From: Bhargavaea sp. CC-171006
GTDB lineage: Bacteria; Bacillota; Bacilli; Bacillales_A; Planococcaceae
Assembly: GCF_009761675.1 (NCBI RefSeq)
Contig: NZ_QUZH01000032.1
Coordinates: forward strand, 1-50,743
Reading direction: 5' to 3'
DNA length: 50,743 nucleotides
Shown: one piece after another, positions 48,898 to 50,743 of the stretch
Layout: the number at the start of each line of letters is the position of its first letter
Numbering within the stretch: the first letter of the stretch is position 1
Position numbers and translations under genes: made by a program
The notes under the pieces: generated by a model
What the model was told of the DNA's origin: nothing
Databases searched by the model: none
What the model saw: only the letters and a program-made list of their open reading frames with translations

Positions 48898-48901
<4 letters not shown>

Positions 48902-50343
48902 ATATAATATGCCTCCGGTGATTGTCGTGAGACCAGAATTTGTTGTACGTCCAGCCGGTGTGTTCCCTGGAACGCCGTACCGGCTGTGAGATGTTGATGC
49001 AGGCTCCTGATTTTCTCGCCGGTGATCGGTTCTCCGGGAAGGAGCAGCGGAATGCCCGGCGGATATGGAATGACAGATGCTGCAGAAAGGCGCCCCTCCG
49101 CTTCGCGGTAGTTGATCCACTCGGACGATGCTTCGGGCCGGACTTCCGGCGGCCCATCAGCCGCAGTGATGGCCGGCTTTGTGGCCGGTTCCGGCGGCTG
49201 TCCGGTTTTCCTGCCGGGTCCGAGCGTTTCTGCAGCTTTTCGGGCAGCGGAAAGCACTTCCTGCAGGCTGATCTGTCCGTCCTTCAGGAGAGGCAGGACG
49301 AGCAGTGCCTGGTATGGATCCGAAAGTTCGGTGTGCACGCCAACACGGGCCAGCGCTTCTGAAAGGTCATTTCCAGAGTGGCCGTCCGCACGGAGCAGAA
49401 GCTTAAGCGGATCATCCGGCTGAATCACCGATAGGCCGTCCAGGGCGTCCAGCCCTGCAATCAATTCTTTCCTGAAGGAAAGGAATGTCTGCAGGTCCTT
49501 TTCCGAGTAGTTGGCGATATAATGACGCGCATCGTCAAGTGATGCCATCAGCGGATAAGACGGGCTGCTGGATTGGAGCATGCCCAGATAATAACTGATA
49601 CGCTGTGAATCCAGCAATGAGCCTTGCGCCACATGAAGAAACGAGGCCATTGTCATCGCGGGGAGCGTCTTATGTGCCGACTGGACGACCACGTCAGCCC
49701 CCTGGAAAAGTGATGACTCGGGAAACGGCGCGCCGATACCGAAATGCGCTCCATGCGCCTCATCTACAAGTAGCGGTATCCCCGCGCCATGACAGACATC
49801 TGCGATCTCACGCATATGCGGGGATACCCTGCCGTAATAGGTCGGGTTGGTCAAGATGACTGCTTTTGCCTCAGGATACATCCCGATTGCTTCCCGCACC
49901 AGCTCCGTTTCCGTATGGCCGGGTGACCGGGTGTTTGCATCCCATACCGGATCCACGTAAACCGGACGGGCTCCGGCCAGTACCAGACCATGAAAAATCG
50001 ACTTGTGCGCATTGCGTTGCACAATGATTCTGTCGCCGGGACGGCAGACCGCAAGAATCATCGCCAGATTACCGGCAGTTGAACCATTGACGAGGAAAAA
50101 GCTCCGATGTGCTCCGTAAGCGTCCGCCAGAAGTTCCTGGGCCTCCCGGATCGGACCGTCCGGTGCATGGAGGTCATCCAGCCCCGGCAGTTCTGTCACA
50201 TCCCAGGACATCATGCCCTGAACGGCGTCCGGCAATCCTGTCAGGTTTCCGTTTTTATGGCCGGGCACATGAAATGAGACCGGACCGCCTTCTGCGAAGC
50301 GCTCCAGCATTTGCACCACCGGCCGCCGTGATTGACTGCCCAT
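48898..50343 (-). CDS. yaaO: Orn/Lys/Arg decarboxylase family protein YaaO
   Basis: PLP-dependent decarboxylase of fold type I. The 481-residue protein has HVPGHKNG near the N-terminus, FFLVNGSTAGNLAMI, VDEAHGAHFG with the cofactor aspartate, and SAHKTLPAMTMAS with the PLP lysine. The C-terminal domain is the short form typical of the Bacillus SpeA/YaaO group. A low-complexity proline/alanine stretch lies near residues 375-400. Substrate (arginine, lysine or other) is undetermined. AAAGGGG precedes the ATG. First gene of the six-gene operon. Confidence 0.92.
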
Positions 50344-50483: not shown

Positions 50484-50501
50484 AGCGCTAATATTAGCGC
50501 T
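50484..50501. repeat. 18-bp perfect palindrome
   Basis: AGCGCTAATATTAGCGCT reads the same on both strands. Its AGCGCT ends are the same core as in the array that follows, suggesting a shared binding factor or origin. Confidence 0.7.
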
Positions 50502-50546
50502 CACTCAATATGAATCCGCATTGTGAGAGGGGGAATATGAAGGTAT

Positions 50547-50658
50547 AAGCGCTCATAGATTTCCATGAGCGCTTATTGCCGTTCTATGAGCGCTTGTGTA
50601 TATTCTAAGAGCGCTTGCAGGTCTTCTACGAGCGCTCGCCGAGTTTCTATGAGCACTT
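50547..50658. repeat. Array of 21-bp AGCGCT repeats with inverted leading unit
   Basis: Five copies of a 10-base unit, consensus ATGAGCGCTT, start at 50565, 50586, 50607, 50628 and 50649, exactly 21 bases apart. The 11 bases between copies vary except for a TTCT (or TTC) end. One inverted unit AAGCGCTCAT (50547-50556) precedes the first copy and can pair with it. The array lies between the rRNA operon terminator and the yaaO promoter. It does not resemble CRISPR: the unit is too short and no cas genes are near. Confidence 0.85.
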
Positions 50659-50689: not shown

Positions 50690-50717
50690 AAAAAAACCGC
50701 CTCCATAAGGAGACGGC
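50690..50717 (-). terminator. rRNA operon terminator
   Basis: On the minus strand CCGTCTCC/GGAGGCGG with loop TTAT and seven Ts, directly after the 5S end. Confidence 0.92.
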
Positions 50718-50721
50718 CTTG

Positions 50722-50743
50722 TGCCCAGCGACGTCCTACTCTT
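50722..50743 (-). rRNA. rrf: 5S ribosomal RNA, 3' end
   Basis: On the minus strand the last bases read AGAGTAGGACGTCGCTGGGC, the conserved 3' end of 5S rRNA in Bacillales. The rest of the gene lies beyond the window. It closes an rRNA operon transcribed toward yaaO. Confidence 0.9.

Follow-up and report, generated by a model that had tools for sequence, protein, structure and literature searches.

Direct-repeat arrays with a 21-bp period at gene ends in Bhargavaea and other Planococcaceae, putative same-face sites of a cooperative DNA-binding protein

The array beside the rrn operon

The window analysed here is the whole of a 50,743-nt contig (NZ_QUZH01000032.1) of Bhargavaea sp. CC-171006, and its array is flanked on one side by an rrn operon, at the 3' end of the latter, and on the other by an operon resembling yaaO-tmk-darA. 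The yaaO-tmk-darA-like operon is read leftward and, in addition to the yaaO-like gene at its head, encodes a thymidylate kinase (PF02223) and a c-di-AMP receptor (PF06153). The right flank is apparently the 3' end of a 5S rRNA, as read by eye at the contig end; an Rfam scan of the window scored the 16S rRNA at 1-402, at the opposite contig end, and one tRNA, and nothing else.

Table 1. Features at the right end of the window.
Feature	Position	Strand	Basis
yaaO-like Orn/Lys/Arg decarboxylase, first gene of its operon	48898..50343	-	PF01276
Perfect 18-bp palindrome AGCGCTAATATTAGCGCT	50484..50501	.	sequence check
Inverted leading unit AAGCGCTCAT (ATGAGCGCTT on the minus strand)	50547..50556	-	word and repeat searches
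Unit 1 TTCCATGAGCGCTT	50561..50574	+	repeat search and phase scan
Unit 2 TTCTATGAGCGCTT	50582..50595	+	repeat search and phase scan
Unit 3 TTCTAAGAGCGCTT	50603..50616	+	repeat search and phase scan
Unit 4 TTCTACGAGCGCTC	50624..50637	+	repeat search and phase scan
Unit 5 TTCTATGAGCACTT, rrn side of the array	50645..50658	+	repeat search and phase scan
Terminator stem and apparent 5S rRNA 3' end of the leftward rrn operon	50697..50743	-	sequence reading

A mismatch scan bore out the initial annotation in its description of five units at an exact spacing of 21 bases with one inverted unit in front. The word ATGAGCGCTT is matched without mismatch at 50565 and 50586, with one mismatch at 50607 and 50649, and with two at 50628, so that all five units (50565-50658) are exactly 21 bp apart, while one period beyond them on either side there are 8 mismatches. 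From the AGCGCT of the inverted unit to the next AGCGCT the step is 20 bases, not 21. A repeat search of the same array returned four 39-nt copies with spacings of 21, 21, and 21. Column frequencies define a conserved core, TTCTAYGAGCGCTY, of 13-14 bp with 7-8 bp between cores; the TTCT first assigned to the end of the spacer belongs to the core.

Phased sets of at least three of five sites, each at no more than two mismatches, did not occur on either strand of 40 order-1 Markov copies of the window. The single word, at one mismatch or fewer, is weakly enriched in the window (8 occurrences against 4.2 expected, with as many in 3 of 100 shuffles), so it is the phasing that is improbable and not the word. 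The window array is real.

The neighbouring palindrome, which the initial annotation had grouped with the array, is perfect over 18 bp as described, with an inner GCTAATATTAGC that two Bhargavaea loci retain at the same position. It probably constitutes an element of its own, lying upstream of the yaaO-like gene, and is a possible operator. The conserved GCTAATATTAGC palindrome lies 5' of the yaaO-like gene in the window (50484-50501) and at 1402 in L040 and 1742 in L076.

One period, many cores

Pairs of GAGCGCT at 21-bp spacing occur at five places in the window's own genome (contigs C2, C4, C6, C9, and C28). The arrays on C2, C4, C6, and C28 share the same rrn terminator flank, making four rrn-type sites including the window, and the C9 array lies between a convergent gene pair; the proximity to rrn that was first noted thus recurs but is only one case of a wider placement at gene ends. 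Orthologous arrays, differing in unit number through gain or loss, are found at the same places in the genus mates G005 and G007 and in contigs of Bhargavaea cecembensis, and TTCTATGAGCGC is spaced at 21 bp in Fictibacillus and Sporosarcina contigs as well. Uniqueness to this site and random spacing elsewhere, which had been named as arguments against a conserved function, are therefore contradicted by exactly spaced copies elsewhere. As to close relatives, loss in which had been named alongside them, G005 and G007 have orthologous copies, but GAGCG triples at period 21 are missing from the other five of the seven genus mates, and two of these (G002 and G004) have no TGACGAA triples either.

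At least one GAGCG triple at period 21 is present in 116 of 261 family genomes, some of which have more than 400 matches; a reversed-pattern control gave zero or nearly zero in most genomes and high counts in some. One of the 116, G077, carries another core, CGCGAGTAT, at exactly 21 bp (e.g. C2:850377). This core is the letter reversal, not the complement, of TATGAGCGC, which is probably chance since CGCGAGTAT surfaced through the reversed control. Relatives have GAGCGG, GAGCGA, or CGCGAGTAT at the same period, and the self-complementary AGCGCT, which the initial annotation pointed out, is not a general property of the arrays.

The period also emerges when no core is specified. A core-free scan of 151 kb of the window's own genome yielded 7 hits at period 21, of which 6 fall outside the window; no other period between 15 and 35 gave more than one, and three Markov copies gave none at 21. 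Corresponding scans gave 6 hits at 21 in 400 kb of G226 (at most 2 at any other period) and, in 240 kb of G219 picked without regard to arrays, 13 raw or 9 merged hits at 21 (at most 3 elsewhere), with several cores represented. Outside the family, 13 stretches (260 kb) from seven genomes of 7 other families contained no period-21 array. Successive TGAGCG words stand 21 bp apart 271 times in the G226 loci and 218 times in those of Sporosarcina P13, some of which may overlap; the next commonest spacings, 20 and 42, account for 10 and 14 cases in G226 and 7 and 7 in P13, and neither set of loci has a peak at 31/32.

Within the window's own genome, 21-bp arrays are built on the unrelated cores CTATGCGCG, TTTCGTCATTCG, GTGAGACGTTG, and TTCGTCACTTTC. 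Of the 8 genomes of the genus, 6 have TGACGAA triples, as do 2 of the 253 others in the family; the reversed control is 0. As unrelated cores share the 21-bp period, the geometry is common to the family and the core words turn over. Class C arrays are head-to-head, with forward TTTCGTCATTCG units followed by inverted ones (L171 11472-11679; L016 551-650). A TPP riboswitch (Rfam RF00059) occupies 2540-2645 of L016, an own-genome stretch that also holds an array.

A phage origin was rejected, the exact TATGAGCG triple at period 21 giving no match in viral contigs; the plasmid matches, four Rhizobium records at E 0.03-0.09 and 73-75% identity, were taken as chance. Four-unit GAGCG matches outside the family were found in G594, G531, G460, G373, G056, G330, G476, G612, G596, G604, G462, and G480. 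By eye, the first seven look like coiled-coil coding repeats or 7-bp tandems, and those in G612, G596, G604, and G462 may be non-coding. G476, a genome of another family, has a long tandem of the 7-bp GAGCGGG at C1:2490905.

Position, divergence, and orientation of the arrays

Among the 16 intergenic arrays in the sampled stretches, 9 occupy convergent, 5 tandem, and 2 divergent gaps; another 3 period-21 regions fall within genes. Convergent gaps make up 7 of 14 array-bearing gaps as opposed to 46 of 292 gaps overall (P 0.002), with genes called by a simple ORF scorer; most statements on arrays and terminators were made by eye, including the closeness of several arrays to terminator-like stems. 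The arrays are mostly non-coding and favour convergent gaps and the 3' ends of genes.

Matched arrays differ at 14 of 182 core sites and 27 of 96 spacer sites (P 1e-5), a count that covers three of five groups and omits a pair without any difference and a group in which a unit gain breaks the register. When the rrn pair, whose units may be non-orthologous, is dropped, the figures are 8 of 117 and 12 of 63 (P 0.02). Lower divergence of the core is what binding sites would show, and gene conversion between units could add to it. An IS66 element interrupts one array (L125 1201-3686); it has three ORFs, and the two that were submitted match Pfam IS66 models. A second pair of G226 arrays stands 2747 bp apart, equal to the distance across the IS66 element, which suggests the same arrangement there.

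In G226, GC skew and gene direction place the origin at 2.69-2.84 Mb and the terminus at 1.11-1.27 Mb. Where an array has at least 10 units and its arm is certain, GAGCG points toward the origin at every locus listed (15 of 15, divided 11 to 4 between the arms, P 7e-4), and one further array of this length lies near the origin; the list behind these counts treats the strands alike, with all 18 matches for one strand and matches up to 3.167 Mb for the other. With shorter arrays included, 23 of 25 loci agree, a tally that omits two loci of uncertain arm (1.196 and 2.752 Mb) and leans toward the rule by sampling: GAGCG+ was listed with a 3-unit pattern and GAGCG- with 6 units to 1.784 Mb, with 10 units to 3.167 Mb, and from samples, which under-counts the exceptions of the left arm. 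Along the same chromosome the long arrays are unevenly distributed, seven arrays of at least 10 units lying within 70 kb (3.097-3.167 Mb) and none between 0.33 and 1.68 Mb, the terminus included.

The full list for both strands of G219 agrees with the rule at 10 of 11 loci (P 0.02); the exceptions are one locus in this genome and two loci of shorter arrays in G226. Arrays in convergent gaps agree at 7 of 7 sites, two of which (L161 and L165) come from a one-strand list; for the five found without strand bias the agreement is 5 of 5 (P 0.06). Two arrays in tandem gaps, flanked by lagging-strand genes, are oriented by the arm rather than by the genes, and three arrays fit neither replication nor transcription. 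In G084, 9 of 12 loci agree (P 0.22), or 12 of 12 after a post hoc split by core type, and in G024 the orientation alternates over five loci that were not assigned to arms. The link between array orientation and replication is clear in two genomes only, G226 and G219.

Interpretation and comparison with known systems

The initial annotation saw either a protein-binding array or a structured RNA element, and protein binding stays the best reading because the phase is constant at two helical turns, the cores have changed less than the spacers, and one core recurs among unrelated spacers. Judging from sequence, we propose that the arrays give a cooperative DNA-binding protein, active at gene ends, a row of sites on the same face, a reading to which we give a probability of about 0.45. 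Each array consists of roughly 3-30 copies of a core of 9-14 bp placed at intervals of two turns of B-DNA (usually 21 bp, in some cases 20); the cores thereby share one face of the helix, and the spacers are free to drift. Each core would be the putative site of a sequence-specific protein, bound head-to-tail along the array, and the bound protein may form a filament or cluster at the 3' ends of genes, especially of convergent pairs, and behind rrn operons. There it could play an architectural or barrier role, for example limiting the run-through of supercoils or polymerase, controlling replication forks, or marking the direction of replication. The phase, the recurrence, the several core classes per genome, the bias to gene ends, the contrast between core and spacer, and the orientation in two genomes are observed; binding, cooperativity, and architectural effect are inferred. 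With operators of proteins that bind direct repeats the arrays share the helical phasing of their units. A protein on each core, with neighbours along one face of the DNA, is the simplest account of the fixed phase, conserved core, free spacer, and gene-end position together. Against it, a constant period is also expected from functionless tandem duplication, of which the 42-bp higher-order repeats in long arrays are an instance; the many cores would demand many proteins or one fast-evolving family; gene conversion could also keep the cores of an array alike; and further counterevidence comes from the two arrays in divergent gaps, the three intragenic regions, the five genus mates lacking GAGCG triples (two of them lacking TGACGAA triples as well), and the orientation data, with alternation in G024, a clean pattern in G084 only after the post hoc split, and three exceptional loci in G226 and G219.

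The main rival to protein binding is a neutral or selfish minisatellite, in which slippage favoured by fork orientation would expand 21-bp units in the tolerant DNA of gene ends to no functional effect. It would explain the 42-bp and longer higher-order repeats, the unit gain and loss between orthologues, the five genus mates without GAGCG triples, and the IS66 element, which marks its site as tolerant of insertion; the replication-linked orientation of the long arrays resembles the orientation-dependent instability known for repeats. It does not account for the recurrence of a given core across arrays whose spacers are unrelated, for the smaller divergence of cores relative to spacers, or for the adherence of unrelated cores to 21 bp, and we regard it as somewhat unlikely. 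Orientation also bears on a reading in which the arrays are polar sites of replication or chromosome orientation (a fork barrier, SpoIIIE/FtsK orienting, or similar) whose binder reads direction. The ordering of long arrays by replichore in G226 and G219 and the two tandem arrays that follow the arm are what it predicts, yet the alternation in G024 (arms not determined), the differing sign between core types in G084, and the lack of arrays of at least 10 units from 0.33 to 1.68 Mb of G226, terminus included, are not, and known chromosome-orienting sequences are single words dispersed also within genes. We consider such a role very doubtful.

Two readings would place the arrays in transcripts. 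An RNA-level element (a 3' UTR structure, a processing site, or paired units making terminator-like hairpins) would account for the inverted unit that begins several class A and B arrays and makes a hairpin, and for the terminator-like stems seen by eye near several arrays. Folding is better than in shuffles on four of the five class A and B strands tested (z of -5.6, -5.3, -3.3, and -1.0 for class A, three of four being better, and -2.9 for class B), but for class D the effect is weak (-1.1, -1.5, and -2.1) and for class E there is none (+1.35 and +0.29). A structured RNA is therefore unsupported as a general property; no match at the Rfam gathering score was found at the arrays of the window, L013-L016, or L125. 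Pairing does not need an exact 21-bp phase, and at the five convergent sites found without strand bias the orientation follows the replichore (P 0.06). We consider the RNA reading quite improbable. The second reading is that the arrays encode heptad-repeat peptides of the form F-Y-E-R-x-x-x, 21 bp being seven codons and TTC TAY GAG CGC reading FYER. Some arrays, such as the long ones of G009, are open in this frame by eye, and in-frame stops are in deficit in G226 (13 of 138 units against 28 +- 3.8 in shuffles). They are at chance in Bhargavaea (8 of 40 against 7.9) and G219 (1 of 50 against 1.5) and in excess in Sporosarcina P13 (7 of 79 against 1.2). By reading, the window array carries a TAA in this frame (50606-50608) and lacks a start codon between the upstream stop at 50546-50548 and unit 1. 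Steps of 20 bp break the frame, and head-to-head arrays cannot share one. Coding is rejected as a general explanation and is extremely improbable. Some 21-bp arrays may be annotated as hypothetical proteins of the FYER type.

The finding is striking but unproven. Among the leading matches of our literature searches there was no description of 21-bp arrays, and some genomes of the family carry hundreds of units. If proteins bind them, they would represent a novel mode of chromosome organisation among Bacillus relatives, and the fixed geometry with changing words would provide a natural series for the co-evolution of protein and site. The fullest version, in which species-specific DNA-binding proteins and two-turn site arrays throughout the family, at gene ends and oriented by replication in at least some genomes, with core words replaced from species to species under a constant 21-bp geometry, constitute an undescribed gene-end chromatin, is one that we judge unlikely on present data. 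If the arrays are neutral, they would form an unusual minisatellite whose ruler is the helical repeat and whose orientation is tied to replication in some genomes; this, too, would call for a mechanism.

Several known systems share features with the arrays. CRISPR repeats are about 23-50 bp long with unique spacers of similar size, whereas the core here is 13-14 bp and the spacer 7-8 bp. Plasmid iterons, too, are helically phased direct repeats, with units of roughly 20 bp, but they belong to the replication origin of a plasmid; the 21-bp arrays are scattered over the chromosome at gene ends. The REP/BIME elements of enterobacteria are likewise intergenic, at 3' ends and between convergent genes, and present in many copies, but they are palindromes of about 35-40 bp with a sequence common throughout, in contrast to direct repeats at fixed spacing in which only a short core is common. 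Operators read head-to-tail are offered by LytTR regulators such as AgrA, which recognise direct repeats whose two sites are probably about two turns apart, and by BldC, which is reported to bind direct repeats as cooperative multimers; these, however, are promoter operators of few sites, while the arrays reach about 30 units, seldom occupy divergent gaps, and have only a hypothetical binder.

The closest described kind found is the Staphylococcus aureus repeat (STAR) element. STAR elements are intergenic direct repeats with a short conserved word, locus-specific spacers, and a variable number of units, their abundance depends on the species, and no function has been assigned to them (PMC3532100). 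The 21-bp arrays share the intergenic position, the short conserved word, the locus-specific spacers, the changing unit number, and the species-dependent abundance. STAR has a GC-rich 14-bp consensus, T(G/A/T)TGTTG(G/T)GGCCC(C/A), and at least 40 bp of recurring sequence between repeats (PMC3532100), whereas the core here is TTCTAYGAGCGCTY with 7-8 bp between cores, several cores coexist in a genome, and orientation follows replication in two genomes. The 21-bp arrays can thus be regarded as a variant of intergenic direct-repeat elements, with a real chance of being more.
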